Position numbers and translations under genes: made by a program. The notes below the pieces were generated by a model. That model saw nothing but the letters and a program-made list of their open reading frames with translations, was not told the origin of the DNA and did not search any database. This document shows positions 43,757 to 58,559 of a stretch of 58,559 bases of DNA, one piece after another; within the stretch, counting starts at the first letter, position 1; every line of letters begins with the position of its first letter. This DNA comes from Lachnospiraceae bacterium (GTDB lineage Bacteria > Bacillota > Clostridia > Lachnospirales > Lachnospiraceae), in NCBI GenBank assembly GCA_017500935.1, contig JAFVXW010000032.1, forward strand, positions 1-58,559, written 5' to 3'.

Positions 43757-45172
43757 CTATTTGTAAATGCGGATATTTTCAAAAATAACCTCTGTATTAT
43801 GCGTATACAGTCCGATATCGCCGCTTTCATGGTCAAACATGCGGGCGCTCATGGCGATGCGGTCATTGACATAAACAGTCAGCACGCTGCCTTCGACGAT
43901 CATCAGCAGCGTATTCTTTTTGCCAGGAATAAGAGGGCAGAAGCGTTCCACATCCACATGACAGTGAATGGTGGCGTCTTTTCGGGGCATTTTGTCAAAG
44001 GTAAGTCTGTTGAAACGGGGATCGAAGCGAACCAGATAATACTTGTCCAGCTTTTCGTCCGCGCGTAAAAATACACCGAAATCGCCGATCTCATCGGCAG
44101 TGGTAAATTCCATTTCCACTTTACAGTTTGTGGGAAGTTCGCCCAGCATCTGGATGCTTCTGCCGCAGTTTTGGCCAATTTTGTATCCGTTTTCGGAAGC
44201 GGTCACCTGATTCATGGAAAAACCATCGCTCAGTGCTGCAGGAGAAGTGTACTGGTTTTTGATCTCTTCGGGGCATTTTACCCAGAGAGTGCCGTCAGTG
44301 TCCTGCACGATCTCATGGGGGATAATAGTGCCGCCCCACTGCCAGAATTCCTCGTCTTTTTCATGATTTTTGATGGGATTCCAGCCAAACAGAATACGGC
44401 GTGTGCCGTCAGAGGTGCTTTTTGCAGCATAATATGCATGACCGTCAAAGGTATCTACCTTGGGCGTGATCCAGGGACCATTGGGACTTTTTGCCATGCG
44501 GTAGCAGGTGGCAACCTTGTCTGAAAATTCACTGAAAAGCAGATACCACCAGTCGCCCATTTTGAAAAGATCGGGACACTCATGGGCAAAAAATGCCTGC
44601 GGCGCATAGAACGGCGTTTCATCTGCGGTCCAGTTCCACAGATCATCGGAATACAGGATCATGGTAATGCCTTTGTTGTTGGAAGGAATGTCGGTTTTGA
44701 CTCTTCCGACCAGCAGCATACAGTATTTTTTCTTTTCTTCATCATAATAAACGAATGGATCACGGAAATCATGGGGTTCTACCCAATCAGGGGCTTCCAG
44801 ACGAAATTCCGGCACTTTTTCCCAGTGAATACAATCTTTGCTCTTTGCCATCATGATCACTTCCTGCGCGAGACCTTTTTCGGGCAGCAGATGGTTGTGA
44901 CCGGTATAAAAAATATAATATTCGTCATTAAATTTGGCACAGCTTCCGGTGAACACTGCCAGATCCTGTTCTTGTGTGGTGCCGCGGTCGAGCACTGTGC
45001 CGTGTTCTTCATAATGCACCAGATCGGTTGTGGTCAGAAGATGCCACGGGATACCGATGCCGTATCCGTCCGGATCGCGGTGGTCTTTTAAATAGAAAAG
45101 ATAAAATTTGCCGTTTTCATAAAACGGGATGACATCTGCGCATACGGATTTGTTTTCTGATCTGTAATACAT
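43757..45172 (-). CDS. GH32-like glycoside hydrolase
   Basis: A 471-residue protein with a five-bladed propeller followed by a C-terminal beta-sandwich. The N-terminal ADVIPFYENGKFYLFYL matches the nucleophile region, HDFRDPFVYYDEEKKKYCM gives the RDP motif, and FFAHECPDLFKMGDWWYLLF gives the acid/base EC motif of GH32. The usual WMND string is altered to CADV, so it may be a divergent member. The last ~170 residues (EFTTADEIGDFGVFLR, GDIGLYTHNTEVIF) form the sandwich. No signal peptide. Fructan or a related furanoside is the likely substrate. It is transcribed alone behind a LacI-type operator. Confidence 0.8.
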   Translation of the reverse strand: MYYRSENKSVCADVIPFYENGKFYLFYLKDHRDPDGYGIGIPWHLLTTTDLVHYEEHGTVLDRGTTQEQDLAVFTGSCAKFNDEYYIFYTGHNHLLPEKGLAQEVIMMAKSKDCIHWEKVPEFRLEAPDWVEPHDFRDPFVYYDEEKKKYCMLLVGRVKTDIPSNNKGITMILYSDDLWNWTADETPFYAPQAFFAHECPDLFKMGDWWYLLFSEFSDKVATCYRMAKSPNGPWITPKVDTFDGHAYYAAKSTSDGTRRILFGWNPIKNHEKDEEFWQWGGTIIPHEIVQDTDGTLWVKCPEEIKNQYTSPAALSDGFSMNQVTASENGYKIGQNCGRSIQMLGELPTNCKVEMEFTTADEIGDFGVFLRADEKLDKYYLVRFDPRFNRLTFDKMPRKDATIHCHVDVERFCPLIPGKKNTLLMIVEGSVLTVYVNDRIAMSARMFDHESGDIGLYTHNTEVIFENIRIYK

Positions 45173-45340: not shown

Positions 45341-45542
45341 AAATAACAGCTTTGGAGTACCGCCACCAAAATACAGGTGGCGGGTATTGTCGTCTGGTAT
45401 CTATTTCAACAAAAAGAATCAAAAATGGATCGCGCAGATCATGTTTAAGAAAAAAACACATTATCTTGGAAGTTTCCGAACGCTGGAAGAAGCGGCTGAA
45501 AGCCGGAAAAAGGATGAATTTTCGGTCAATCAGCTTTTTTAG
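45330..45542 (+). pseudogene. AP2-domain protein remnant
   Basis: One plus-strand frame, open after TGA 45327-45329 and closed by TAG 45540-45542, reads GIYFNKKNQKWIAQIMFKKK, then THYLGSFRTLEEAAESRKKD. This is one AP2-type DNA-binding unit, as found in bacterial homing endonucleases and phage integrases. There is no ATG or ribosome site, and no nuclease or integrase part. The 3' end touches the stop of the GHKL kinase gene. It is probably debris of a mobile element. Confidence 0.65.
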
Positions 45543-46816
45543 ACTGACAGCATAATGCGAAGCGTAAAAATGCCGTTTTCTGCTTCAAAGCTGTATAAAC
45601 CATGATGCTGCTCCACAATGGACTGTATACTGCGGCAGCCATAACCGTGACCGGACTGTGAGGAAATGGGGATTCCGTCCTGTAATTGAATCTCTCCAAG
45701 GTAAGGATTTTTAATTTCGATCAGCAGTTTGTTTACGCGAATATCGCAGTAAAAATCCACCCAGCGTTGCGTGGGTTCCAGTTTGGCGGCAGCGTGCAGG
45801 GCATTTTCCAGCCCGTTTGATAAAAGAGAACAAAGCTCTGTGTTGGGCAGAGAGAGCTTTTGCGGAAGCTGTGCCTTTACGGACATACGGGTTTGCTGGC
45901 GGGCAGCTTTTTTAAAATAGGAAGAACACAGCAGATTAACGGTATCGTTTTCACAGAAGCGTTTGGAAACAATGCTTTCGACATCCTGCTGGACTTTTCG
46001 GATGTATTCTCTTGCCTGTTCCACATCGTTACGGGAAAGATAACTGTCCAGAAGAACCAAATGATGGCGCATGTCATGCTGATAAATGGCAGCCTGTTTC
46101 TCGGTGTGCCGGAGGCGTTCCAGCGCTGCTTCGGCCTGGGTAAGCTCTGCTTCCAGCATGGATTTTTGGAATTCTGCCTGCTTTTGTGTTTCTGACCGGG
46201 TATGATAGGCGGAAAGAAACAGGAGATAGAAAATAATAAATGCGGTGGGCAGAAATTCCTTTGCAATCTGCGAACCGTCATACAGCGCATTGGAATAAAC
46301 GGTTGCAGCATAATCAAAAAGATAGTATGCAATCGGCAGACAGCCAAAAAGGAAGCTGGACTGTGAAGAATGAAGCAGTGCTTCCGACGCGGAATTGATA
46401 AAACCGTGACAGAGCAGGGCAAAAACAGGTACAATAAAGATACTGTAGCTAAGTTCGCCGATAAGGGCAGAACCGGTAAGCGTTTCAAATAAAATGCTGA
46501 TCCATCTGGGCAGCTGGCAGCAAAGATATGCGGTGCAGACACTGATAATGGCAGTGCTGCACTTTTTTTTGCATAAAAAAATCAGAATCAGAACAACGGG
46601 CAGATGGACGATAAGAGGATAAAGCTGCCGGACCGCATCTACGCCTGCCACAAGACAGCCAATCCCCTGAATCAGTAAAAGAAATGGGCATGACAGGATA
46701 ACAAAACGCCGTTGCCGCTGCTCTTTCCAGCAGCCAGCAATCATCACACTTAAAAAAAGCCCATAGATCAGAACAAGCGCGTAATTGATAAGTTTAAGAA
46801 TCTGTAAAAAATCCAT
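45539..46816 (-). CDS. GHKL-domain sensor histidine kinase (AgrC/LytS-like)
   Basis: A 425-residue protein. The first ~215 residues form six or seven membrane helices, a signal-binding arrangement as in AgrC-type kinases. The phosphorylation site is in AIYQHDMRHHLVLLDSYLSR (~residue 250), and the ATPase part has the GHKL N-box LLSNGLENALHAA and G-box SGHGYGCRSI. It starts four bases after the LytTR regulator with GGAGG in the gap, so the pair is an operon. Peptide or cell-envelope signals are typical for this class; the ligand is unknown. Confidence 0.9.
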   Translation of the reverse strand: MDFLQILKLINYALVLIYGLFLSVMIAGCWKEQRQRRFVILSCPFLLLIQGIGCLVAGVDAVRQLYPLIVHLPVVLILIFLCKKKCSTAIISVCTAYLCCQLPRWISILFETLTGSALIGELSYSIFIVPVFALLCHGFINSASEALLHSSQSSFLFGCLPIAYYLFDYAATVYSNALYDGSQIAKEFLPTAFIIFYLLFLSAYHTRSETQKQAEFQKSMLEAELTQAEAALERLRHTEKQAAIYQHDMRHHLVLLDSYLSRNDVEQAREYIRKVQQDVESIVSKRFCENDTVNLLCSSYFKKAARQQTRMSVKAQLPQKLSLPNTELCSLLSNGLENALHAAAKLEPTQRWVDFYCDIRVNKLLIEIKNPYLGEIQLQDGIPISSQSGHGYGCRSIQSIVEQHHGLYSFEAENGIFTLRIMLSV

Positions 46817-46820
46817 AGAG

Positions 46821-47540
46821 TCAATCCTCCCGCTGAGAAAACAGCAGCTTTAGATAATCCTTTTGCAGCTGCGGATAGGAGAGCCGTGATACCGGCAGGA
46901 GCTTGCCGGAAAAAGTACGGATGCCGGAGGGCGAAAATTCGGCAGCCTGCAGCATGTTTACGATATAAGAACGGTGAGGCTGCATGAATTCAGGGCGGCT
47001 GAGCAGGGCAGCTTCATATTCACGCAAGGTCCCGTAAACTTCGCGGACACTTCCGTCGGTCAGATTGAAAAACAAATGCTTTCCGTTGACTTCTACATAG
47101 GAAAGAGAGGAAAACGGGATTCTGATCCATGCAGAACCGCATTTCAGGGTGAGACCTTCTTCGGGCTTTTGCTCGCGCAAAAACAGCCGGTCCAGTATAG
47201 GGAAAAGCATATCCCGACGCACAGGCTTCAAAAGATAATCCAGAGCGCGGACACTGTAGCTTTCATAGGCAAAACCGGGGGAAGAAGTCAGAAAAACAAT
47301 ATCTGCCTTCTCATCAAAACGGCGGATCTCACGCGCTGCTTCCAGACCATCCATTCCGGGCATCATTACATCCAATATATATAAGGAAAAAGGTTCTTTC
47401 TCGGCGGCATCGAGCATAGCAGAGGCGCTGTTGAAGGTTTTCAGCCGCAGCGCATGATTTCTTTCACTCTGCCAGCGGTCAAGAAGATGGATCAGAAACT
47501 GCAGTTCTGATTCCTGGTCATCACAGATTGATATGTACAT
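46821..47540 (-). CDS. LytTR-family response regulator
   Basis: A 239-residue regulator with a receiver domain (phosphoacceptor Asp ~residue 57 in SLYILDVMMPGMDGLEAAR) and a C-terminal LytTR DNA-binding domain (LKCGSAWIRIPFSSLSYVE, FMQPHRSYIVNM). LytTR regulators bind short direct repeats and commonly control adhesion, biofilm and peptide production. It is divergent from the surface-protein cluster that begins ~190 bases away, which makes that cluster a natural candidate target. Confidence 0.92.
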   Translation of the reverse strand: MYISICDDQESELQFLIHLLDRWQSERNHALRLKTFNSASAMLDAAEKEPFSLYILDVMMPGMDGLEAAREIRRFDEKADIVFLTSSPGFAYESYSVRALDYLLKPVRRDMLFPILDRLFLREQKPEEGLTLKCGSAWIRIPFSSLSYVEVNGKHLFFNLTDGSVREVYGTLREYEAALLSRPEFMQPHRSYIVNMLQAAEFSPSGIRTFSGKLLPVSRLSYPQLQKDYLKLLFSQRED

Positions 47541-47726: not shown

Positions 47727-48059
47727 ATGTTATCCTGGATTGCATGGCTGATCGCGCTCATAAGTACAACAATATGTATCTGTATCTGGTTTTATGATGT
47801 GCGGCGTATTATGAAAAGTCAGATGAGTACAGTGGAAAGTGCTTCCATGCAGCTGTTGTCATGCCGGAAAAAAGAAGAAAACTGGCGCAGCAGTCAGCAG
47901 GGAATCGCGATTATGGAACGAAGCGAAAGCATCTACAGTCAGGCAGTTGACCATTATAATACTACCCTGCATAAATTTTGGATCTATATTCCAGCCAGAT
48001 TGATGGGATTTGAAGAGGTGGAAAACAAAAACTGTTGTATAAACAGCAAAATTGCTTGA
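47727..48059 (+). CDS. Small membrane-anchored LemA-like protein
   Basis: A 110-residue protein. A single N-terminal membrane helix (MLSWIAWLIALISTTICICI) is followed by a helical part ending AVDHYNTTLHKFWIYIPARL, which resembles the C-terminal helices and conserved tail of LemA proteins, though much shorter than the usual ~180 residues. Function unknown. Start 47727 has GGAAGGAG six bases upstream; the earlier in-frame ATG has none. It opens the surface cluster, about 100 bases before the signal peptidase gene. Confidence 0.6.
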   Translation: MLSWIAWLIALISTTICICIWFYDVRRIMKSQMSTVESASMQLLSCRKKEENWRSSQQGIAIMERSESIYSQAVDHYNTTLHKFWIYIPARLMGFEEVENKNCCINSKIA

Positions 48060-48162
48060 AAACAGTGTGTAATAGTGTTATTGTAAATTGACTAACTAGT
48101 ATATTTCGCAAATATTTTATAATAAGGAAGCGCATTGTTTTTGGTGCAGGAAAAGACAGGAT

Positions 48163-48699
48163 ATGAGAGCAATTAAAAAAATATGGAATGTAATCACCAC
48201 TTTACTGGTAGCTGCCGCGGTTGTTCTGACAGTCGCTCTTGTGGGTGTCAGACTGATCGGTTTTCAGCCATACATGGTTTTATCCGGCAGTATGGAGCCG
48301 ACCTATCATGTAGGTTCCCTGATCTATGTCAAAGCAGTGGACTACAAGACACTCAAAGCCGGTGACCCGATCACATACATGATCAGCCAGGACACGGTAG
48401 TTACACATCGAATCGTGGAAGTGGTGGCAGATGAGAAGGAGGCGGAGACAATCCGCTATGTAACAAAAGGCGATGCCAATGATGCGGCGGACGGCAGCAT
48501 GGTCCACTACAAGAACATCATCGGCAAGCCGGTTTTTTGCATTCCTTACCTTGGTTACGTGTGCAACTACATACAAAACCCTCCGGGCATGTACATAGCA
48601 ATAGCCGCAGGAGCACTTTTAGTATTCTTTGTATTCTTGCCGGATGTGTTTGCATCTGATGATAAAGAAAAAAAGAAAAAGAACGAAAAGGATGCGTAA
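48163..48699 (+). CDS. sipW: Signal peptidase I, SipW type
   Basis: A 178-residue ER-type signal peptidase. An N-terminal membrane helix (NVITTLLVAAAVVLTVALVG) is followed by the catalytic Ser43 in VLSGSMEPTYHVGS and His82 in VVTHRIVEV, where classical bacterial enzymes have Lys. RYVTKGDAND and a second membrane helix near the C-terminus (MYIAIAAGALLVFFVFL) complete the SipW plan. In Bacillus, SipW matures the fibre proteins TasA and TapA. Five genes just downstream encode proteins with matching SipW-type leaders, so they are its probable substrates. A possible promoter with TTGACT lies near 48087. Confidence 0.93.
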   Translation: MRAIKKIWNVITTLLVAAAVVLTVALVGVRLIGFQPYMVLSGSMEPTYHVGSLIYVKAVDYKTLKAGDPITYMISQDTVVTHRIVEVVADEKEAETIRYVTKGDANDAADGSMVHYKNIIGKPVFCIPYLGYVCNYIQNPPGMYIAIAAGALLVFFVFLPDVFASDDKEKKKKNEKDA

Positions 48700-48781
48700 G
48701 AATTGGAATAGGGAAATTACACGCGATGCGTGTTGATATAGATAACTATTAAAAACAAATAAATGAAAGGAAGAAAACAAA

Positions 48782-49477
48782 ATGAAGAAAGCAAAAAAAG
48801 TTTTAACTCTGCTGCTTTGCGCAGCGCTGCTGGTAGGCGCAACCATTACTGGTACTTTGGCATTTCTGACTCAGACTACTGAAACTGTTACCAATACCTT
48901 TACTGTAGGTAAGGTTCAGTTGGGTGAGGATTCTGATGGAGACGGTATTGTTGAGGGCGGTCTGGATGAAGCTAAGGTTGATGTGTATGGTAGACGTCTG
49001 AAAAGTGATGACACTGTTTTTGATGAAGAAAATGACGATGAAAAGGATCTTGCAAAGCGCGTTACAGTTAATACCTACAAGCTGATTCCTGGACATACTT
49101 ATGTTAAGGATCCTACTATTCATGTGGCTAAAGGCAGTGAACCTTGTTATCTCTTTGTGAAAGTTACAAATCCTATTACAGGTATCGAAGCAACTGGAGA
49201 TACTACAATTGCAAAACAGATGGAAAATAATGGTTGGGCACCTCTTGCTGGTGTAACAGATACTTATTATAAGACTACTACAGTTTCTACAACTGAAGAC
49301 GCCGGAGAGGATGTTGATGTTTTTGGTAGTTTTACACTGGATGATAATGCAGATGTATCTACTTATGCAGGTCAAACCATCACTGTAGTTGCGTATGCGA
49401 TTCAGGCTGACGGTTTTACAACAGCTGCGGATGCATGGAGTGCTGCACCTAGCACTTGGGGTGTGACTACTCCTTAA
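48782..49477 (+). CDS. TasA/camelysin-like secreted protein 1
   Basis: A 231-residue protein with a SipW-type leader: KK-rich start, LTLLLCAALLVGATITGTLA, then FLTQTTETVTNTFTVGKVQL. The mature part is acidic with a predicted beta-rich fold; LIPGHTYVKDPTIHV and the ending VVAYAIQADGF-AADAW are shared with its neighbours. By family it should form or join an extracellular fibre. RBS GAAAGGAAG. A small hairpin (ACACGC/GCGTGT, 48719-48733) separates it from sipW and may trim transcription. The gene is visibly more A/T-rich than the housekeeping genes. Confidence 0.85.
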   Translation: MKKAKKVLTLLLCAALLVGATITGTLAFLTQTTETVTNTFTVGKVQLGEDSDGDGIVEGGLDEAKVDVYGRRLKSDDTVFDEENDDEKDLAKRVTVNTYKLIPGHTYVKDPTIHVAKGSEPCYLFVKVTNPITGIEATGDTTIAKQMENNGWAPLAGVTDTYYKTTTVSTTEDAGEDVDVFGSFTLDDNADVSTYAGQTITVVAYAIQADGFTTAADAWSAAPSTWGVTTP

Positions 49478-49579
49478 GAGTTTGAAGATGAAAAAAATCC
49501 CGATGAAGGTTGGATTTGGATGTTTTTGGAAAGTTAGAAAATAATCAATCTCAAATTTTAAAGAAACGAGGAAACTCAA

Positions 49580-50209
49580 ATGAAAGTAAAGAAAAGTATA
49601 AACACAAGAGTAGTGGTTCTTCTTTTAGCGCTTGTCCTTATGATCGGCGGTGTTGTAGGTGGCTCCTTGGCATTTCTGATGACAAAGAGTGATGCTGTTG
49701 TAAACACTTTTGTTGCCGGTGCTATTGGTGAATTGGATTTGGATGAAACTGAAACCGCAATAACGACTGCTGGTAATAATACCTATCTTATTGTACCCGG
49801 TAAAGATATTGCCAAAGACCCGTATGTTACTTATACTCCTACTACTGACGGTACTGATGTTGGTGAGGTTTATATTTTCGTCAAAGTAACTGGTGGTTCC
49901 TGGATGTATAACACCACTAACAGTAAATTTGAGGCAGATAGTTTAAGCTGGGCTGTGGATAGTAACTGGACCTATCTTAGTGACAATGTAATTTATAGAA
50001 CTGCATCGGCTGCTATTGCTAAAGACGCTGGTTATATTATTGCTGATAACAAAATTGAAGTTGCAGATACCATCAAAGAAGATGATATCGATAATACAGT
50101 AACAGCAACTACTGGTTTAACTTTTACTGCTTATGCAATTCAAGCAGAAGGATTTACTGGAACTACTGCGGCTGCTGATGCATGGAATGCAGTTAAAGAT
50201 CTTCCGTAA
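49580..50209 (+). CDS. TasA/camelysin-like secreted protein 2
   Basis: A 209-residue protein with the leader VLLLALVLMIGGVVGGSLAF followed by VVNTFVAGAIGELDLDE. It has the family strings LIVPGKDIAKDPYVT and the shared ending FTAYAIQAEGFTG-AADAW. No cysteine is seen in the mature part. It starts ~100 bases after protein 1 with a GAGGA site and is co-oriented. It should be a SipW substrate exported to the cell surface. Confidence 0.83.
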   Translation: MKVKKSINTRVVVLLLALVLMIGGVVGGSLAFLMTKSDAVVNTFVAGAIGELDLDETETAITTAGNNTYLIVPGKDIAKDPYVTYTPTTDGTDVGEVYIFVKVTGGSWMYNTTNSKFEADSLSWAVDSNWTYLSDNVIYRTASAAIAKDAGYIIADNKIEVADTIKEDDIDNTVTATTGLTFTAYAIQAEGFTGTTAAADAWNAVKDLP

Positions 50210-50252
50210 TCCAACTTCACTGTAACTTACTCACTAAAAAGGAAGTAAAACC

Positions 50253-51020
50253 ATGAAAAAGAAACTTTTTACCATCGTGCTGTGCGTAGCTATGTTGGCT
50301 ATTGCCATCGCCGGCGGCACAATGGCCTATTTCACAGACAAAGATGATCAGACCAATACCTTTACTGCCGGTAAGGTAGACATTACCCTGTTTGAACACA
50401 CAGTAGAGAAACAGACTGATCCTGAAAAAGACAGATACGGTGATCTGGTTAAAACTGATGTAGAAACTCAGGATACCCAGAATTACCATCTGTTCCCCGG
50501 CATGACAGTGGATAAGGATCCCACCATTCGTGTTGAAGACGGATCAGAGGATGCATACCTTGCAGCAAAGGTTACTGTAAATAATGTTGAAGGTAAAGAT
50601 GTCCACGATCTGATTGGTATTGAGTATGGGCATATGCTGGCACTCCAGGATTTCCTGAGCGGCGGTTGCGCAGTTGTTTCCGTAGAACAGAAAGAACATA
50701 AACTTAATGAGCGTAACGGTATTCGTGTATACGGTGACGGTACATACTCTGTTTGGCAGGAAATCATCAATAATAACGGTCAGTACACCTATGTATTCTA
50801 TGTCTTTATTGAAGGCGCTAAGTCTGCCAAAGACGAAGTTACATTGTTTGAACAGATGAAGATCAAATCTGACTGGACAAATGAACAGATGGAGATTATG
50901 AATAATCTTTCCATCGATGTACAGGCATTTGCTGTACAGGCTAACGGCTTTAAGGATTGTTACACTGCAATGACCAGTGCTTTTGGTCAGAAGGCTGGAG
51001 ATCCTTTCTATTTTCCCTGA
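50253..51020 (+). CDS. TasA/camelysin-like secreted protein 3
   Basis: A 255-residue protein, the closest of the set to TasA in outline. Leader FTIVLCVAMLAIAIAGGTMA; then YFTDKDDQTNTFTAGKVDIT, a central HLFPGMTVDKDPTIRVEDG, TYVFYVFIEGAKSAKDEVTL and the ending VQAFAVQANGFKDCYTAM. Start 50253 follows AAAAAGGAAG. It is followed by a strongly structured 160-base gap, so expression of the genes after it may be attenuated. Confidence 0.87.
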   Translation: MKKKLFTIVLCVAMLAIAIAGGTMAYFTDKDDQTNTFTAGKVDITLFEHTVEKQTDPEKDRYGDLVKTDVETQDTQNYHLFPGMTVDKDPTIRVEDGSEDAYLAAKVTVNNVEGKDVHDLIGIEYGHMLALQDFLSGGCAVVSVEQKEHKLNERNGIRVYGDGTYSVWQEIINNNGQYTYVFYVFIEGAKSAKDEVTLFEQMKIKSDWTNEQMEIMNNLSIDVQAFAVQANGFKDCYTAMTSAFGQKAGDPFYFP

Positions 51021-51035
51021 ACCGTAACCTACATA

Positions 51036-51105
51036 CCTGCGCCCTTTTAAGGGCGCAGGGCATACAAGGACACCCAGAAATCTATACTGGATGCCCTTGT
51101 ATGTC
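51036..51105 (+). other. Double hairpin between surface protein genes
   Basis: A perfect 24-base palindrome with arms CCTGCGCCCTTT and AAAGGGCGCAGG (51036-51059) is followed at once by a long imperfect stem pairing GGGCATACAAGGACACCCAG with CTGGATGCCCTTGTATGTCC, ending before TGCGTTTTG. It is probably a partial terminator or RNA-stability element inside the cluster. Confidence 0.7.
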
Positions 51106-51179
51106 CTGCGTTTTGGGACTGAAAACAAAAAACTCCGCATTAGTGGTTTTCTAATATTCATGATAGGAGAGTTTTGCTT

Positions 51180-51755
51180 ATGAAAAAGAGAATCTTTTAT
51201 ATTGCAGCAATCCTGATTTGTCTGTCGCTTACGACAGGCGGTACACTCGCTTATTTTAATACAACTGAAACAGCAACCAATGTCATTACCACCGGCGGTG
51301 TTTCCATTGATGTGCTTGTAAACGGCTCTTTGGAGTCTGATTCCGACGAGCCGATTCCTGTAATGCCTGCCACGGAAGTTGACAGAAGTATCACTGTCCG
51401 GAGCAATAAGCAGGCTGCATGGATTCGGGTAAATTACACCCTTACAGTTTATGATGCAGAAAACAAAAAAATGGAAATTCCGGCAGATGAACTGAAAAAA
51501 GTAATTGTGATTACGCCTGACAATACCAACTGGACACAAAAAGACGGCTGGTGGTATTACAATACAGCAGTAAAAAACGGCGAAACCACAGCTCCGCTTT
51601 TTGAAAAGATTGCATTTTCCGGCCCGGATATGGACAACAAATATCAGCTTTGTACTTTGGTGGTTGATATTAACGCACAGGCAGTACAGCAGGCAAACAA
51701 CAAAACTTCTGCAACAGAAGCTTTGGGATGGCCTGAAATTGGAGAGGAGGAATAG
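51180..51755 (+). CDS. TasA/camelysin-like secreted protein 4
   Basis: A 191-residue protein with leader FYIAAILICLSLTTGGTLAY followed by FNTTETATNVITTGGVSIDV. The mature part has a conserved-looking SITVRSNKQAAWIRVNYTLT strand and KDGWWYYNTAVKNGETTAPL, and ends with the variant AQAVQQANN. This branch resembles the tip-associated members that accompany Cna-B or InlB proteins. Start 51180 follows ATAGGAGAG. The giant surface protein begins three bases after its stop with GGAGAGGAGG between reading frames, so the two are translationally linked. Confidence 0.8.
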   Translation: MKKRIFYIAAILICLSLTTGGTLAYFNTTETATNVITTGGVSIDVLVNGSLESDSDEPIPVMPATEVDRSITVRSNKQAAWIRVNYTLTVYDAENKKMEIPADELKKVIVITPDNTNWTQKDGWWYYNTAVKNGETTAPLFEKIAFSGPDMDNKYQLCTLVVDINAQAVQQANNKTSATEALGWPEIGEEE

Positions 51756-51758
51756 TAT

Positions 51759-54700
51759 ATGATAAAAAGAATACTTGCTTTGGCATTAGCTCTCCTGCTG
51801 GTAGTGAATATAATGCCGATGTCTGCTTTTGCAGTCAGCGGTAATGATATGCCTGATACTGCAGTGGAAAGTGAAATAGAAACTGCTGCAGAAGAAGCGG
51901 AAAGTACAGAAGAAAAGTCTCTCTGCCCTACCTGCGGTCAGTACGACTGCGTTTCTGACCATTTGACATGGTGCAGTGAATGTAAAAAGGATGACTGCGG
52001 CAAAACCCATGTGTGGTGCGAAACCTGCCAGAAAAATGACTGCGGTGTGGAACATAAAACATGTGAAATCTGCAATACGGTTGACTGTACTGCCGAACAC
52101 AAGGTTTGCGGCACTTGCAATACCATGGACTGTAAGAGCAGTCATGAAACATGGTGCACAATCTGCTTAAAAGATGACTGCGGCACAGAGCACAAGGCAT
52201 GTGACACCTGCGGAAACCTCGATTGCACCAAAGAACATAAAGTTTGCGACAAGTGCGAAAAAGTTGATTGCACCGCAGATCACACCAACTGGTGCAAAGA
52301 ATGCAAAAAAGATGACTGCGGCGTAGAACACAAAAAAGAGATTCTTCGTGTTCCTGTAAAATCTGCTGGTCTGACAACAGCTTCCAGCGGGAAAGAATTG
52401 ACGCAGGATTTCAGCGGTGATATCGGAAAGTATGTAAGACTGAGTGACGCTGTAAGTTCTATTCAGGTTTATGAAAAAGAAACCACTATACAATCAGCTT
52501 TTTTTCAAGATAGTTTCACAGAAGATACCATTCTGAAGATCGTTGATTGGGAGGTAAACGGAAAAGGTTTATGGTATCTTGTTGAATTTTATTCCGGTGA
52601 AGTTACAGGCGATCTGGCTGGAGGATGGCCTGCAAATCCCTGGATTTTGCAAACTGATGGCAACAGCTCCGATGCATTGGTGTTTATTGACTGCTGTGAA
52701 ACCTGTGGTAAGCCGGACTGTGATTCTTCACACGAAAACTGGTGCGAAATCTGTGAAAAGGATAACTGCGGACTGATCTGTGAAGAATGCAAAGAACATG
52801 GCTGCGAAATTGACCATGATGCACAAAAACCTACAGAACCGGAACTTCATGACCCGGACAGCGGCGTGACCGTTTATTTTGAAACAATTCCGGAAAACAT
52901 GAGTTTGAAGGTAAAAGAAGCGGATCTTGGGGAAAAGATTGGAGACTTCTTAATTCCGGTTGAAAAGCAGGTTTTTGCGTTGGATATTTCCCTGCAGGAT
53001 GAAAATGGCACTTGTCAGCCGGAAAGCACAGTAGGTGTAAAAATTCCGGTATCTGCTCCGGTTGGTTCCAAAATCGGTATTCTTCATAAACACGGAGATA
53101 CTACCGAATATGTGGGATGGGTGGAAGTGTTGTCTGATAATACTGTAGAGTTTGCCACAGACAAATTTTCCGAGTTTGTAGGCTTTACGGTGGACTTCCA
53201 CTATAACGGCATTGATTTCTCTATTGACGGTGAAAGCAGTATCCTGCTGTCCGAATTATTTGAAGCACTGGAAATAACTGACAGACCGGCAACGGATGCA
53301 GAATCAGTGGTTTTCTCTGATCCGTATTTATTGACTGTTGATCGGTTGGATGATGGTGACTGGGTATTAACTTCAACAGTTGCGTTTGATACGGAAGAAA
53401 CATTGGTTATCACATTTAGTGATGACAGTGTAATGGTTATTGATGTGACGGATGAACAGGGTAAGGTAGAAGTTGGTGACTATAATCGCTATGGCCTATT
53501 CCAAACTAAGATTACTGCAAATGGTGACAGTGTAGTTGCTTCTGATGGTAACCATTACTTTTGGTTATATTATTCTTCTAAATGGAACGCTATTTATCGA
53601 CATATTACTTTTCATTATAACAATGGAAGTGATCAAACGGATAAGGCAGAGCATTATCCATATTCTGATTCCACTTCAACGCGATTCGGATCAAATGCTA
53701 ATAATAGATGGTTTGAAATATATGATTTTGAAAATGTAAATATATCTGCAGAAACAAATGATAGTTTTAGAGAAACGGCATACCAAATTAGTGCTAAAAC
53801 AGGTATTTCCATTGGTAATAGTGACAGACATATCTATTTTTATGTACATGACGCAACGATTTCCATTCCTAAGGCAGAAGAAAAGTTGTGTACTGTATCT
53901 GTAAAACCCCGTGTTTGTAATACTGCAGCAAACATTAATAATAAGGAACCAAGGGATATCAAGATTTATCTGAATGGAGAGTTGATAGGAGAAAAATACG
54001 ATGTATATTTCCCTAATGACGATTCATATGACGATGCTGGTGGTTTGACAGTAACGCAAAATAATAAGTCCAGATATAAGCTCGAACAAACATATGATGA
54101 TACTAATAATGTGTACATCCTGAATTTTTACGATTATGCTTATAAATTAATCTATAATACAAACGGTGGAAAAACAGCTAATTTTAATACATCATATAGT
54201 GCACGTGCCAAAGAAAGTATGACTTTTACAATTTCTGATAAAGTACCGGAAAGAGAAGGTTATGACTTCCTTGGCTGGTCTAAGAGTAAAACTGCCACAG
54301 AAGCTGAATATGTGGCAGGAGATAGTTATAAGATTACTGGTCAAAAGCAAACGAAATCTCCTTACACCACAATTACTGCAACAGAAACATTATACGCAGT
54401 CTGGTCCCCAAAAACAGATACAGTATATAAGGTGAAAATTTACCATGAAAATGCGGATGATGCTGACTATACCAATGTCAGCACAGAGGATAAAACAGGA
54501 ACTACAGATAAAGAAGTATCTGTGACACCTCCGGCAGCTCCTACAGGTTTTGAATATAATTCAAGTAAATCTGTGGTTAAGGGAACAGTTACGGGGGATG
54601 GTGAACTGGTATTGGAAATTTATTATGATCGTATTGAGAGTAAACTGACATTGGAAAAAGGCACAGGTATTTCTAGTGTTACAGGTGCAGAAACCTATAA

Positions 54701-56852
54701 ATACGGTGCCAGCGTTACGATCAATGCGTCCTGTGCTACAGGTTATGAATGGTCAAAGTGGACTAATGGAAGTAGTCAGGTTTCAACAAATCAAAAGTAC
54801 ACATTCACCATGCCTGCGTCTGCTACAACCTATAAAGCAAATGCAAAACCGGTTCAATGCGATGTTGAATTTGATATCAATTATGAAGGAGGTACAGATC
54901 CTGCAAAGGGTGTTGTGGAATACAGCGGTAAATACAGTAACTTACCCATTGTACAGCGTGTAGGTTATAGTTTTGACGGCTGGTATACTGCTGCTTCCGG
55001 CGGCTCAAAAGTCACTGCAGACACAGTCTGCAAACAGACAACAGAACATACGCTGTATGCACACTGGACAGAGAATGTTTATAACATCACCTACGATCTG
55101 GATGAAGGAGAACTTCCTGAAGGAATAACAAATTATGAATCCTACAGGGCTTCTTCAGCAGATTTTACTTTGAATAATCCGGAAAAGACCGGTTATACCT
55201 TCACCGGTTGGACAGAAGAGATTTCGACATCCAACTGGACGGATGGATTTGTTAATTTGGAATCGGGAAATTATGAGTTTAATAATACTTATCCGAGTTC
55301 AGTTTTCAGTGAAAAAATTTATGTAGAAAAAGGTGTGACATATACAATAAACGGATCTGGACTTGAGAATATTCGTTGGCGGCTTTTTAAGACGGATGGT
55401 ACTTATGTTGCTAGTATATCTAGTTCTAAAACATGTACGCCCTCTGAAAATGGTTATGTTCATGTTCTTCTTCATATGGGATGTACAGAAGCTAACCGTA
55501 ATGCAGCCAGAATTACCTCTTCTCAGGGAGATTCCGTTACTATTGTAAGTGGTTCCACAGGTGACCGTAAATATATTGCCAACTGGGATGCAAATGAATA
55601 TACGGTTGCGTTTGACGGTAATGGTGCTACCGGCGGTTCTATGGAAAGCCAGAGTTTTAAGTATGGTGAGAATGCAAAAGAACTGACTGCCAACGCATTT
55701 AAAAAAGAGTACACGGTTACTTATCATAATGAAAGTACCACTTCCACGGCAGTTGCAGAAGCAAAATTCAATGGCTGGGCGACAAGTGCAGACGGAGACA
55801 AGGTTTATGATGACAAGCAGTCTGTAAGCAATCTGACATCTGTTAAGGATGAAACAATTACCCTTTATGCAGATTGGGAGGCGGCAGAAGTTACCCTGCC
55901 TGAACTGGAAGAGAGAATCGGTTATAGTTTCAAAGGATGGTATGCAGATTCTGAATTTAACACCTTTGTAGGTAATGCCGGAACGAAACTTTCGATTACA
56001 GAAAACACCGATCTGTATGCAAAGTGGGAAAGAGGATTTGTGACTCTGACGGTTATCTATGACGACAAACAGGCGGAACCGCAGAACAACAGTCTGCAGG
56101 ATTATACCCAGACCAATACAGGATGGGAACGCAATGTAGATACCGGGGCAACCATTTCACTGCCTGAGATTACGGCGAAAACCGGTTACAAGATCATTGG
56201 TATGTTAATTGATGATGTTGAGCAGCAAAACAGCGTAACCAGCCTGAAGATGGAACAAGATACTGTCGTTGAAATTCTGTCCTCACCCATCGAATACACC
56301 ATCTGCTTTAACAAAAATGCGGATGATGCAGAAGGAAGCATGGCTGATCAGACGATGACCTATGATAAAAAGGAGAAGCTGACAGAAAATACCTTTACCC
56401 GTGCAGGCTATACCTTCATAGGATGGGCAGAAACAGCTGACGGAGCGGTTGAATTTAAAGACAAAGATGACGTCATAAATCTTTCTGCTCAGGATGGGGC
56501 AGAAGTAACCCTCTACGCCGTATGGGAAGTCAAGACCTTCAAGCTGGAAATTGAAACCCAAAATAACATTGACAATGACCAGACCTACCTCTTTACTGTT
56601 GAGGGCGAGGGCTTAAATGGTCAGGAGATCAAGATTGTCATCGCATTAGGCGCAAAGGATAAGAAGTCGATATCTGGTCTGCCTGCAGGTACTTATACCA
56701 TCAGCGATCAGCAGAAATGGAGCTGGCGGTACAGCCCGCAGTCTAAAACAGTCAGCTTTACAGATTCTGCGCCGGAAAAACAGGTATTTACCTATAATTC
56801 CATGATCCCAGATAAGGTTTACTGGCTCAACGGTTACAGCAGTGTGAATTGA
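51759..56852 (+). CDS. Giant secreted InlB-repeat protein with Cys/His modules
   Basis: A 1697-residue surface protein. Signal peptide MIKRILALALALLLVVNIMP ending SAFA. Residues 56-193 hold nine tandem modules C-x2-C-x4-C-x3-H (for example CPTCGQYDCVSDH), and residues ~312-354 hold three more. Residues ~360-790 are beta-rich with no family I recognise. Residues ~794-1590 carry about six Listeria-Bacteroides (InlB B) repeats, each ending like TLYAVW or TLYAHW with GYTFxGW inside. A final domain resembles the prealbumin-like C-terminal modules of Firmicutes adhesins and ends YWLNGYSSVN. No LPXTG motif or anchor helix is seen. Adhesion or coat formation is likely; metal binding or disulfide cross-linking by the Cys modules is inference. 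Confidence 0.88.
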   Translation: MIKRILALALALLLVVNIMPMSAFAVSGNDMPDTAVESEIETAAEEAESTEEKSLCPTCGQYDCVSDHLTWCSECKKDDCGKTHVWCETCQKNDCGVEHKTCEICNTVDCTAEHKVCGTCNTMDCKSSHETWCTICLKDDCGTEHKACDTCGNLDCTKEHKVCDKCEKVDCTADHTNWCKECKKDDCGVEHKKEILRVPVKSAGLTTASSGKELTQDFSGDIGKYVRLSDAVSSIQVYEKETTIQSAFFQDSFTEDTILKIVDWEVNGKGLWYLVEFYSGEVTGDLAGGWPANPWILQTDGNSSDALVFIDCCETCGKPDCDSSHENWCEICEKDNCGLICEECKEHGCEIDHDAQKPTEPELHDPDSGVTVYFETIPENMSLKVKEADLGEKIGDFLIPVEKQVFALDISLQDENGTCQPESTVGVKIPVSAPVGSKIGILHKHGDTTEYVGWVEVLSDNTVEFATDKFSEFVGFTVDFHYNGIDFSIDGESSILLSELFEALEITDRPATDAESVVFSDPYLLTVDRLDDGDWVLTSTVAFDTEETLVITFSDDSVMVIDVTDEQGKVEVGDYNRYGLFQTKITANGDSVVASDGNHYFWLYYSSKWNAIYRHITFHYNNGSDQTDKAEHYPYSDSTSTRFGSNANNRWFEIYDFENVNISAETNDSFRETAYQISAKTGISIGNSDRHIYFYVHDATISIPKAEEKLCTVSVKPRVCNTAANINNKEPRDIKIYLNGELIGEKYDVYFPNDDSYDDAGGLTVTQNNKSRYKLEQTYDDTNNVYILNFYDYAYKLIYNTNGGKTANFNTSYSARAKESMTFTISDKVPEREGYDFLGWSKSKTATEAEYVAGDSYKITGQKQTKSPYTTITATETLYAVWSPKTDTVYKVKIYHENADDADYTNVSTEDKTGTTDKEVSVTPPAAPTGFEYNSSKSVVKGTVTGDGELVLEIYYDRIESKLTLEKGTGISSVTGAETYKYGASVTINASCATGYEWSKWTNGSSQVSTNQKYTFTMPASATTYKANAKPVQCDVEFDINYEGGTDPAKGVVEYSGKYSNLPIVQRVGYSFDGWYTAASGGSKVTADTVCKQTTEHTLYAHWTENVYNITYDLDEGELPEGITNYESYRASSADFTLNNPEKTGYTFTGWTEEISTSNWTDGFVNLESGNYEFNNTYPSSVFSEKIYVEKGVTYTINGSGLENIRWRLFKTDGTYVASISSSKTCTPSENGYVHVLLHMGCTEANRNAARITSSQGDSVTIVSGSTGDRKYIANWDANEYTVAFDGNGATGGSMESQSFKYGENAKELTANAFKKEYTVTYHNESTTSTAVAEAKFNGWATSADGDKVYDDKQSVSNLTSVKDETITLYADWEAAEVTLPELEERIGYSFKGWYADSEFNTFVGNAGTKLSITENTDLYAKWERGFVTLTVIYDDKQAEPQNNSLQDYTQTNTGWERNVDTGATISLPEITAKTGYKIIGMLIDDVEQQNSVTSLKMEQDTVVEILSSPIEYTICFNKNADDAEGSMADQTMTYDKKEKLTENTFTRAGYTFIGWAETADGAVEFKDKDDVINLSAQDGAEVTLYAVWEVKTFKLEIETQNNIDNDQTYLFTVEGEGLNGQEIKIVIALGAKDKKSISGLPAGTYTISDQQKWSWRYSPQSKTVSFTDSAPEKQVFTYNSMIPDKVYWLNGYSSVN

Positions 56853-56869
56853 GAAAGGAGGAGTCATCT

Positions 56870-57436
56870 GTGAAACAGAAAAAACGTAAATGTTCTGCAA
56901 GGAACAGAAAACGGAATAAAATTGTTGTCGTGGCACTCTCCCTTCTCATGACACTTACATTTATTGCCGGTGGAACGATAGCATATCTGAGCATCAGCGG
57001 TGGACGTGTTACCAACACCTTTCAGGCAGGTCAGGTGGACTGTGAAGTAAACTATAATAACCAAAACTTTGAGTCCATTACCAATAAGGGAAATGTATCT
57101 GCTTACATTCGTGTTGCTGTGACCGTAAACTGGGTAGAAGACTGGCTTTCTGATAGAGATACTTACGCGATTGCACCGGAGTATACAATTACTGCAAATG
57201 AAAGCGGTGGATGGGAAGAGCGCGACGGCTATTTCTACTATGTAAATCCGGTTCCGGCTAAAGAAAATAATGTGATTTCTGCAGTACCTGCAACTGTTAC
57301 GGTTACAAGCGAAAATCCGAATGACAACGTTTATGAACTGGAAATTCGATACCTTGCAGAAGCCATTCAGGCCGAAGGCGTAAAGGACGGAACCAATACC
57401 CCTGCATATCAGAATGCATGGTATGGCACTGAATAA
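56870..57436 (+). CDS. TasA/camelysin-like secreted protein 5
   Basis: A 188-residue protein with a very basic N-tail (KQKKRKCSARNRKRNK), then leader VVVALSLLMTLTFIAGGTIA and YLSISGGRVTNTFQAGQVDC. The mature part has KGNVSAYIRVAVTVNWVEDW and the ending IRYLAEAIQAEGV. I chose GTG 56870, which follows AAAGGAGG with proper spacing; the TTG at 56849 would place that site inside the gene. It most resembles protein 4 in the strand after the leader, and like it adjoins a larger surface protein gene. Confidence 0.82.
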   Translation: MKQKKRKCSARNRKRNKIVVVALSLLMTLTFIAGGTIAYLSISGGRVTNTFQAGQVDCEVNYNNQNFESITNKGNVSAYIRVAVTVNWVEDWLSDRDTYAIAPEYTITANESGGWEERDGYFYYVNPVPAKENNVISAVPATVTVTSENPNDNVYELEIRYLAEAIQAEGVKDGTNTPAYQNAWYGTE

Positions 57437-57450
57437 GGAGGGAAACAGGA

Positions 57451-58559
57451 ATGAAAAAGATACTGAAAAACATATTCCCTCTCCTTCTTGTGCTGGCAAT
57501 GACATTTGGTTTGCAGATAACCGCTTTTGCTTCGGAATCTTCTGTAACCTATCAGGATAACAACTTTATTTTCAAACCCGGAAGTGACTATTCGGGAACG
57601 GACCTGTTTGAAAACTTTAAGGATGTTATGCCCGGTGATACGCTGACAGAGACGATCGAAGTCAAAAATGACTCCGGCAGAAGTGATTATGTCACAGTTT
57701 ATCTGAAAGCACAGATACATGACAAAGCAGACGCTGCAATGCTGGATTTTCTTTCCAAGCTGCATTTGAAAGTGTATGACAGCGGCAATCTGATCTTTGA
57801 CGGAGCTGCCAATGAAACAGACGGTCTGACAGACAATGTCCGCCTTGGAACCTTTCATAAGGGAGAAGGCACGACACTGCAGGTGGAACTGACAGTACCT
57901 ATTGAGCTTGGAAACGAATATGCCAACCGCATCGGCAAAGTAGACTGGGTATTTCTGGCAGAGGAAGGCAATTATCCTCCGGAGCCTGAGTATGAGACCC
58001 GTATCGTCAAAAAGGTATGGCAGGATGACGGCATCAACCGCCCTAAAAGCGTCAAAGTAACCCTGATGCGAAACGGTGAGCCTTTTGAGACAGTAGAGAT
58101 CAACGAAGGCTGTAACTGGAAGTACATCTGGACAAATCTTGCCAGCGGCTACAGCTGGACCATCGTGGAAAAGGACGTGCCGGAAGGCTATCAGGCGGCG
58201 TATAACATCGTGACAGATACCACCACCATCACCAACAAAAAGATCGGCATAAGCTATGAGGATCTGCAGGTGATCAAGGCATGGAGCGATAACCGTTTAA
58301 ACCGGCCTGATTCCATCACAGTAACCCTGTTTTCCGGTGAGACTGCGGTGGAAACCGTAACCTTAAGTGCAAAGAACAAGTGGAGCCACACATGGAAAAA
58401 CCTGCCGACAAACGGCAACTGGTCAGTAGTGGAAACATCCGTACCGATGGGTTACAGAGCCATGTACAGCAGACACGGAAATACCATTGTAATTACCAAT
58501 GTGTCTTCACTGTTGCAGACCGGACAGTTAAACTGGCCCATTTACCTTCTGCTTATCGC
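57451..58559 (+). CDS. Cna-B domain surface protein (3' end beyond window)
   Basis: At least 369 residues. Signal peptide KNIFPLLLVLAMTFGLQITA ending FA-SE. Residues ~25-185 form a beta-rich domain (DVMPGDTLTETIEVKNDSGR) found next to SipW substrates. Two Cna-B modules follow, TRIVKKVWQDDGINRPKSVK and LQVIKAWSDNRLNRPDSITV, each with a WxxLP/WTNLA strand and a Glu before the end as in isopeptide-bond-forming pilins. The last visible residues are SSLLQTGQLNWPIYLLLI: a sorting-like LLQTG directly before a hydrophobic helix. The Pro of LPxTG is replaced by Leu. RBS AAGGAGGG. The stop lies outside. Confidence 0.85.
   Translation, partial: MKKILKNIFPLLLVLAMTFGLQITAFASESSVTYQDNNFIFKPGSDYSGTDLFENFKDVMPGDTLTETIEVKNDSGRSDYVTVYLKAQIHDKADAAMLDFLSKLHLKVYDSGNLIFDGAANETDGLTDNVRLGTFHKGEGTTLQVELTVPIELGNEYANRIGKVDWVFLAEEGNYPPEPEYETRIVKKVWQDDGINRPKSVKVTLMRNGEPFETVEINEGCNWKYIWTNLASGYSWTIVEKDVPEGYQAAYNIVTDTTTITNKKIGISYEDLQVIKAWSDNRLNRPDSITVTLFSGETAVETVTLSAKNKWSHTWKNLPTNGNWSVVETSVPMGYRAMYSRHGNTIVITNVSSLLQTGQLNWPIYLLLI

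Follow-up and report, generated by a model that had tools for sequence, protein, structure and literature searches.

We analysed the whole of contig JAFVXW010000032.1 (58,559 bases, hereafter the window) from the draft genome of a Lachnospiraceae bacterium (GCA_017500935.1; completeness 95.07%, contamination 5.67%) and found at its right end a cluster that, on balance, probably encodes a wall-anchored surface fibre of the donor-strand type carrying an interchangeable adhesin. The conserved unit, rightward throughout in the window, has the order sipW–S1–S2–S3–S4–ADH–S5–BASE, where sipW encodes a SipW-type signal peptidase, S1 to S5 are SipW-dependent subunits, ADH is a 1697-residue adhesin and BASE is a protein with a TasA-like domain. 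The system is a variant of the SipW/TasA-type systems. Our reading draws on the recurrence of this gene order, the pairing of S5 with the adhesin, the TasA-like fold of BASE and the donor-strand register of the adhesin tail, all of them results of computation.

Results

The gene order recurs in gut Clostridia and beyond

Relatives of the cluster were sought in 250 genomes of the window's family, in a phylum sample of 398 genomes and in two sets of loci. One set holds the best 80 of 178 BASE relatives from one scan and is biased towards the window's type; the second comprises the window and 23 other loci with several other gene orders, three of the 23 being also among the 80. The adhesin and BASE lie together on the plus strand in 42 of these best 80 of 178, and 25 loci of the 80 have both sipW and the adhesin, arranged as sipW–S(1-5)–ADH–S–BASE with small variations. 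An earlier note on this DNA had staked its view on conservation of the order beyond one strain, and the order recurs far beyond that of the window. The 80 loci, mostly from metagenome-assembled genomes, belong to Lachnospiraceae, Oscillospiraceae, Holdemania, Anaerofustis, one Peptoniphilus record and five Saccharibacteria records. The unit occurs in the commensal type strain Cuneatibacter caecimuris DSM 29486, the species whose locus L184 has a complete adhesin tail, and, with a short adhesin, in Hespellia stercorisuis DSM 15480. At four Saccharibacteria loci (L134, L145, L150 and L172) sipW is present together with S4, BASE and S proteins of other kinds, and the adhesin and S5 were not detected by our position profiles; the fifth, L140, is cut. 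Contamination is unlikely, as the chromosomal genes flanking L134, L145 and L150 are common to the three.

Within the genus, a sipW-like gene (E ≤ 1e-5) occurs in 5 of 13 genomes, the window's included, so the cluster is accessory there. The family sample contains the BASE N-domain (profile A2) in 41 genomes, the ADH C-terminal domain (A1) in 21 and a TIGR02228 match above cut-off in 81. SipW was found in 39 of the 41 BASE genomes versus 42 of the 209 others (Fisher p=1.5e-20, kinship ignored), and an above-cut-off SipW lies within 20 kb of 41 of 52 BASE matches and 16 of 22 adhesin-domain matches. Among the matches with no SipW nearby (11 BASE, 6 adhesin-domain), the same genome carries one elsewhere for 9 and 2, respectively. 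Across the phylum sample, the BASE domain (A4) occurs in 17 of 398 genomes, counting the window's.

A second architecture was seen at loci L159, L163, L164, L171, L174, L175, L177, L178, L186, L189, L190, L192, L194, L199, L203 and L204, often with two sipW genes and with another leader protein after S4–BASE; many of these loci have large open reading frames (ORFs) without the adhesin tail module. Genomes G185 and G120 contain 14 and 10 matches to SipW-type peptidases, suggesting several separate SipW systems per cell.

S5 is paired with the adhesin

S proteins were classed by comparing their mature parts with five position profiles, which were partly trained on the same loci. S5 follows 42 of 43 adhesins, the exception being the first of a tandem pair. 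Among the 80 loci, many of which are cut by contig ends and whose kinship is ignored in these counts, 42 have both adhesin and S5, 36 have neither, none has the adhesin alone and 2 have S5 alone (L128 and L157, where the contig begins just upstream). In the second set, S5 adjoins the adhesin or is one sipW away from it in 19 of 22 adhesin loci (not in L116, L119 or L120). S5 is likely the adhesin's dedicated partner subunit. Of 63 S4 proteins, 31 have the adhesin as their immediate downstream neighbour and 29 have BASE, which makes ADH–S5 look like a cassette placed between S4 and BASE.

A tree was built from 55 sequences of 11 loci, and in it S4 (97/97) and S5 (98/95) are each set apart by a single branch, unlike S1, S2 and S3. 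A division of S1–S3 into three strictly orthologous groups was not supported, as each needs 3-4 changes on the tree versus one for S4 or S5. The multi-component fibre with specialised paralogs proposed in the earlier note gains support from the recurring order and the separate S4 and S5 clades, with a different division of labour: a paralog had been suggested as the tip, and here ADH is the likely adhesin at the tip or along the side, with S5 as its partner.

A proline box separates S5 from the other subunits. BASE has an invariant proline (62/62) that aligns with that of LKPGD in TasA, which we take to be P62 in the numbering of 8aur. S1, S2, S3 and S4 have one invariant proline each (11/11) in a similar PG/PA context, equated with the BASE/TasA position by sequence pattern. 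S5 has no proline in the 16 residues before its NTG..AYIR core in 35 of 38 pattern-matched rows (of 41); one of the 38, L170, matched in the leader and does not count. This absence fits an S5 groove that may be suited to something other than an ordinary N-terminal donor. A 14-residue N-terminal unit of TapA and the proline box of the donor contact are described in PMC10151520.

BASE has a TasA-like domain and a sorting signal

The conserved part of BASE is a TasA-like domain, which the earlier note does not mention and for which Foldseek ranks TasA first and second (E 2.8e-4) and the archaeal bundling pilus 7ueg fourth. The leader of BASE is of the ordinary Sec type, and the protein has no donor strand that we could recognise. 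The contig end at 58559 interrupts the gene inside its sorting signal (LLQTGQLNWPI..., LLQTGQLNWPIYLLLI), and in relatives of this type the protein closes with LIQTGQLNWPI, a membrane segment and a basic tail. All 79 complete BASE relatives have the membrane segment. Counts of the sorting signal vary with the pattern used: 71/79 with the first pattern, 79/79 with a laxer one and 73/79 with xxxTG, a few of the last lying by eye in linkers, as in the Saccharibacteria copies. BASE alone in the window carries such a signal, none being flagged on S1–S5. No sortase match was found on the window contig, which is cut after BASE, and the sortase matches in the same genome are on contigs C12 and C16 only. 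This protein, previously taken for a large Cna-B adhesin, is better read as a likely sortase-anchored, TasA-like base.

SipW-type leaders and N-terminal donor-like segments

The Ser/His signal peptidase had been assigned to the SipW type, and TIGR02228 bears this out, scoring it well above cut-off; it falls below the cut-off of the Bacillus SipW equivalog model (NF046067). SGSMEP and THRI motifs are visible in it by eye. Strict SipW motifs miss many SipW-like ORFs, since over 59 of them an SGSMEP-type motif occurs in 37, HR[IV] in 42 and both in 34. Five SipW-type leaders had also been claimed. Three of the five window subunits (S1, S3 and S4) pass the TIGR04088 cut-off, and the genome's three matches at E ≤ 0.1 are all within the cluster; S2 and S5 do not pass the curated cut-off and were assigned by sequence, by orthologs and by a leader profile partly built from S2 and S5 themselves.

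At the sequence level, the mature N-termini show a donor-strand pattern, [YFW][FL]-x-...-N-x-F, of 12 or 13 residues. Counting from the first residue, N-x-hydrophobic is found at a distance of 12 or 13 in 153 of 159 N-termini extracted from the 80-locus set, excluding three loci seen earlier, and the segments of window S1 to S5 measure 13, 13, 12, 12 and 13 residues. The corresponding TasA segment is presumably 12 residues, A28 to F39, matched to 8aur. Published work places the TasA donor strand at residues 28-38, with hydrophobics F29, I32 and F39 (PMC9674648).

Most adhesin tails share the register of the donor-like segments

The adhesin class is defined by a common C-terminal domain, which has weak Pfam matches to SpaA, DUF7601 and DUF5979 and, in most members, a WSWRY-like signature; a tail follows at the C-terminal end. 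Bodies vary: in 8 relatives scanned of the 43 adhesins, four have vWA, three InlB-type and one no recognised domains. The likeness of the adhesin tail to a donor strand was first noticed on an initial set and then tested on the 80-locus set minus the three loci already seen. W[LIMVF] occurs within the last 60 residues of 39 of 40 adhesins, and 27 of 39 tails carry W-L…N-x-F in the donor-strand register, compared with a mean of 2.3 and a maximum of 9 over 5000 shuffles. A profile of 40 tails, with the three seen loci included, aligned end to end with that of the 159 donors (score 13.1, P 3e-5), whereas the best of 100 column permutations reached 9.1 and reversed donors 3.6; since the tails are mutually homologous, these tail/donor statistics overstate independence.

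The InlB-repeat content reported for the window's ADH holds (Table 1). Its C-x2-C-x4-C-x3-H motifs number eleven in all, nine in tandem at residues 56-191 and two more at residues 313 and 341. The array resembles zinc fingers, within an extracellular adhesin, and other Cys/His-rich arrays were noticed by eye in adhesins or their neighbours at L123 (3820-4764), L188 and L153.

Gene layout of the window

The rightward gene series given in the earlier note is present at its coordinates (Table 1). Intergenic gaps measure 82, 102, 43 and 159 bases between sipW and S4, and shrink to 3, -4 and 14 bases between S4 and BASE; terminator-like sites on the plus strand are all inside genes. The LemA-like mini-protein said to begin the series did not hold up (E 0.01, 16.1 bits, cut-off 26.2). 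We rejected it as a component: the match is weak and no similar ORF (E ≤ 0.01) was found in 103 other loci (23 of the second set and the 80). Divergent from the cluster, on the minus strand, lie genes for a GHKL histidine kinase and a LytTR-type response regulator (45539-47540), with a GH32 gene of the fructan hydrolase type (43760-45172, minus strand) upstream of them. The pair, absent from the earlier note, was rejected as a conserved regulator, both genes having clear relatives at L111 (14241-16231) only.

Table 1. Positions of the cluster features in the window.
Feature	Position	Strand	Evidence and remarks
SipW-type (Ser/His) signal peptidase	48163..48699	+	TIGR02228 106.5 bits (cut-off 51.85); NF046067 121 bits (below cut-off 190)
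S1, SipW-dependent subunit	48782..49477	+	TIGR04088 24.7 bits (cut-off 19); predicted mature start FLTQTTETVTNTFTVG; group A8
S2, SipW-dependent subunit	49580..50209	+	No match to curated leader models; predicted mature start FLMTKSDAVVNTFVAG; group A9
S3, SipW-dependent subunit	50253..51020	+	TIGR04088 42.4 bits and PF12389 32.1 bits across leader; predicted mature start YFTDKDDQTNTFTAG; group A10
S4, SipW-dependent subunit	51180..51755	+	TIGR04088 28.7 bits; single clade 97/97; stands before ADH, or before BASE if the cassette is absent
ADH, 1697-residue adhesin	51759..56852	+	Sec-type leader, Cys/His repeats, InlB B-repeats, SpaA-like C-terminal domain and tail; PF09479 E 5.6e-45, PF18998 E 2.3e-13
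ADH Cys/His repeats	51924..52331	+	Nine tandem C-x2-C-x4-C-x3-H, period 15-16 residues
ADH C-terminal SpaA/DUF7601-like domain	56544..56822	+	Common to adhesins with unlike bodies
ADH tail WLNGYSSVN	56823..56849	+	Stops short of the N-x-F present in most relatives
S5, adhesin-associated SipW-dependent subunit	56849..57436	+	Start codon uncertain; predicted mature start 56984; group A7; single clade 98/95; co-occurrence with ADH
BASE	57451..58559	+	Sec-type leader, TasA-like domain, two Cna-B spacer domains, start of LLQTG sorting signal; gene cut by contig end
BASE TasA-like beta-sandwich domain	57532..57990	+	Invariant PGD
Start of BASE sortase sorting signal	58510..58557	+	LLQTGQLNWPIYLLLI; sequence, and complete signals of relatives

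Discussion

We propose that SipW would cleave the leaders of S1–S5 and thereby expose an N-terminal donor strand on each. S1–S4 would be shaft subunits that donate their own strand and accept another in the groove marked by the TasA proline box. BASE, with a TasA-like fold and proline box and no donor strand, would be an acceptor only, and a sortase would join it to the wall, so that BASE would terminate the fibre at the cell. ADH would leave by the ordinary secretion route and, with a donor-like strand at its C-terminus, act as a donor only, and S5 would be the adaptor, receiving the ADH tail and inserting its own donor strand into the shaft. The simplest chain would be adhesin–S5–shaft–BASE–wall. 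Such a fibre would be polar because the adhesin would only donate, S1–S5 would donate and accept, and BASE would only accept; it would present the adhesin at its end, where it may mediate adhesion.

Several results weigh against this assembly or lend it no support. Profile searches of the PDB with S1–S5, and likewise with A6, retrieved no TasA, and fold searches with the S5 model (predicted local distance difference test score 84.6; residues 1-19 outside the sandwich) gave nothing significant, their weak matches including the donor-strand pilins AfaE, Csu, Saf, AggB, HdaB and PsaA and the TasA fibre. Scans of whole adhesins with the donor profile gave modest enrichment only, and in a scan with a reversed control the best match was in the tail in 8/42 forward and 10/32 reversed, the reversed adhesins thus doing as well as the real ones. 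The tail of the window's own ADH lacks the terminal N-x-F, and a C-terminal donor strand would put the adhesin body at the groove end opposite to that of an N-terminal donor. S5 might instead hold the adhesin along the fibre or at the wall, not at the end, with the tail serving as a binding peptide and not as a donor strand. The strong S5–adhesin pairing would suit this arrangement, as would the weaker register in whole-protein scans, the blindness of one scan to direction, the short tail in the window and the reversed geometry. We consider it rather unlikely, given that tails match donors in register and in end-to-end profile and do not match reversed donors.

The recurring ADH–S5–BASE order, the S5–adhesin pairing and the TasA-like fold in the anchored protein would be unexpected if the paralogs were secreted into the medium to polymerise or aggregate there as a SipW-dependent mixed matrix, with the adhesin and the anchored Cna-B protein as separate surface proteins linked by common regulation only. 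Precedent exists in Clostridium perfringens, where BsaA polymers are described as mainly extracellular, forming without BsaB or BsaC and not needing srtB (PMC7395162), and we hold a matrix of this kind to be rather unlikely here. A coat, S-layer-like sheet or spore-associated layer of paralogs, with no fibre, seems very improbable: TasA was first described as spore-coat associated (PMC9674648) and several paralogs could tile a surface, but the unit has one anchored base only, and each of the five paralogs in the window has a donor-like segment at its N-terminus, both of which point to linear growth.

Like the tapA–sipW–tasA system of Bacillus subtilis, the proposed wall-anchored fibre has SipW, SipW-type leaders, donor-like N-terminal segments similar in length, the proline box and a TasA-like fold, found here in the anchored protein; it differs in having five paralogs and a large adhesin that comes with a partner subunit. 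TapA is thought to provide the first donor strand (PMC9674648, PMC10151520), whereas the anchored protein here is a likely sortase substrate without one. The C. perfringens sipW–bsaABCRSD locus is likewise a SipW operon of a clostridium, encoding a two-component system along with several putative secreted proteins (PMC7395162). There, srtB deletion reportedly left pellicles and BsaA unaffected, and the description of the locus mentions no large adhesin or anchored TasA-domain protein (PMC7395162). Our two-component genes, unlike those, are divergent and mostly not conserved. For the Bacillus cereus cluster sipW–calY1–bc_1280–calY2, we take bc_1280 to be the gene for CapP. Several TasA/camelysin subunits co-assemble there with the accessory protein CapP (PMC13082335, PMC10151520); that system is described as sortase-independent, and its description includes no adhesin cassette. 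The archaeal bundling pili of Pyrobaculum calidifontis (7ueg) are TasA-related pili and rank fourth for BASE in Foldseek. They are not known to possess an adhesin, an adaptor or a base anchored by a sortase.

Chaperone-usher (type 1) pili resemble the proposed fibre in working principle only, with donor-strand subunits, an adaptor and an adhesin at one end; the predicted polarity is reversed here, the adhesin being a donor only and the base an acceptor only. We noticed no chaperone or usher, and no search was aimed at either. SpaA-type sortase-assembled pili also have Cna-B domains and an LPXTG-like anchored protein, but in the window the sorting signal is on BASE alone and the contig has no sortase match. 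Among the open-access matches listed, in the portions of text covered, there was no sortase-anchored TasA-fold base, adhesin-dedicated subunit or donor-like adhesin tail.

It is possible, though we hold this more loosely than the fibre itself, that the cluster represents a Gram-positive equivalent of adhesive donor-strand pili that needs no chaperone: a polar TasA-type fibre with a donor-only adhesin on a dedicated adaptor at one end and an acceptor-only TasA-fold base, linked covalently to the wall, at the other. Such a fibre would be built by gut Clostridia, where different adhesin bodies (InlB-type, vWA and others) would be exchanged on one shared docking module, and also by Saccharibacteria, which lack the adhesin cassette. 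If true, this would suggest a way to fix a TasA-type fibre to the cell and equip it with a specific adhesin, and S5 presence, the tail motif and the proline box would serve as sequence rules predicting which fibres bear adhesins. It would also mean that gut bacteria have a widespread class of adhesive appendage of which we found no description.

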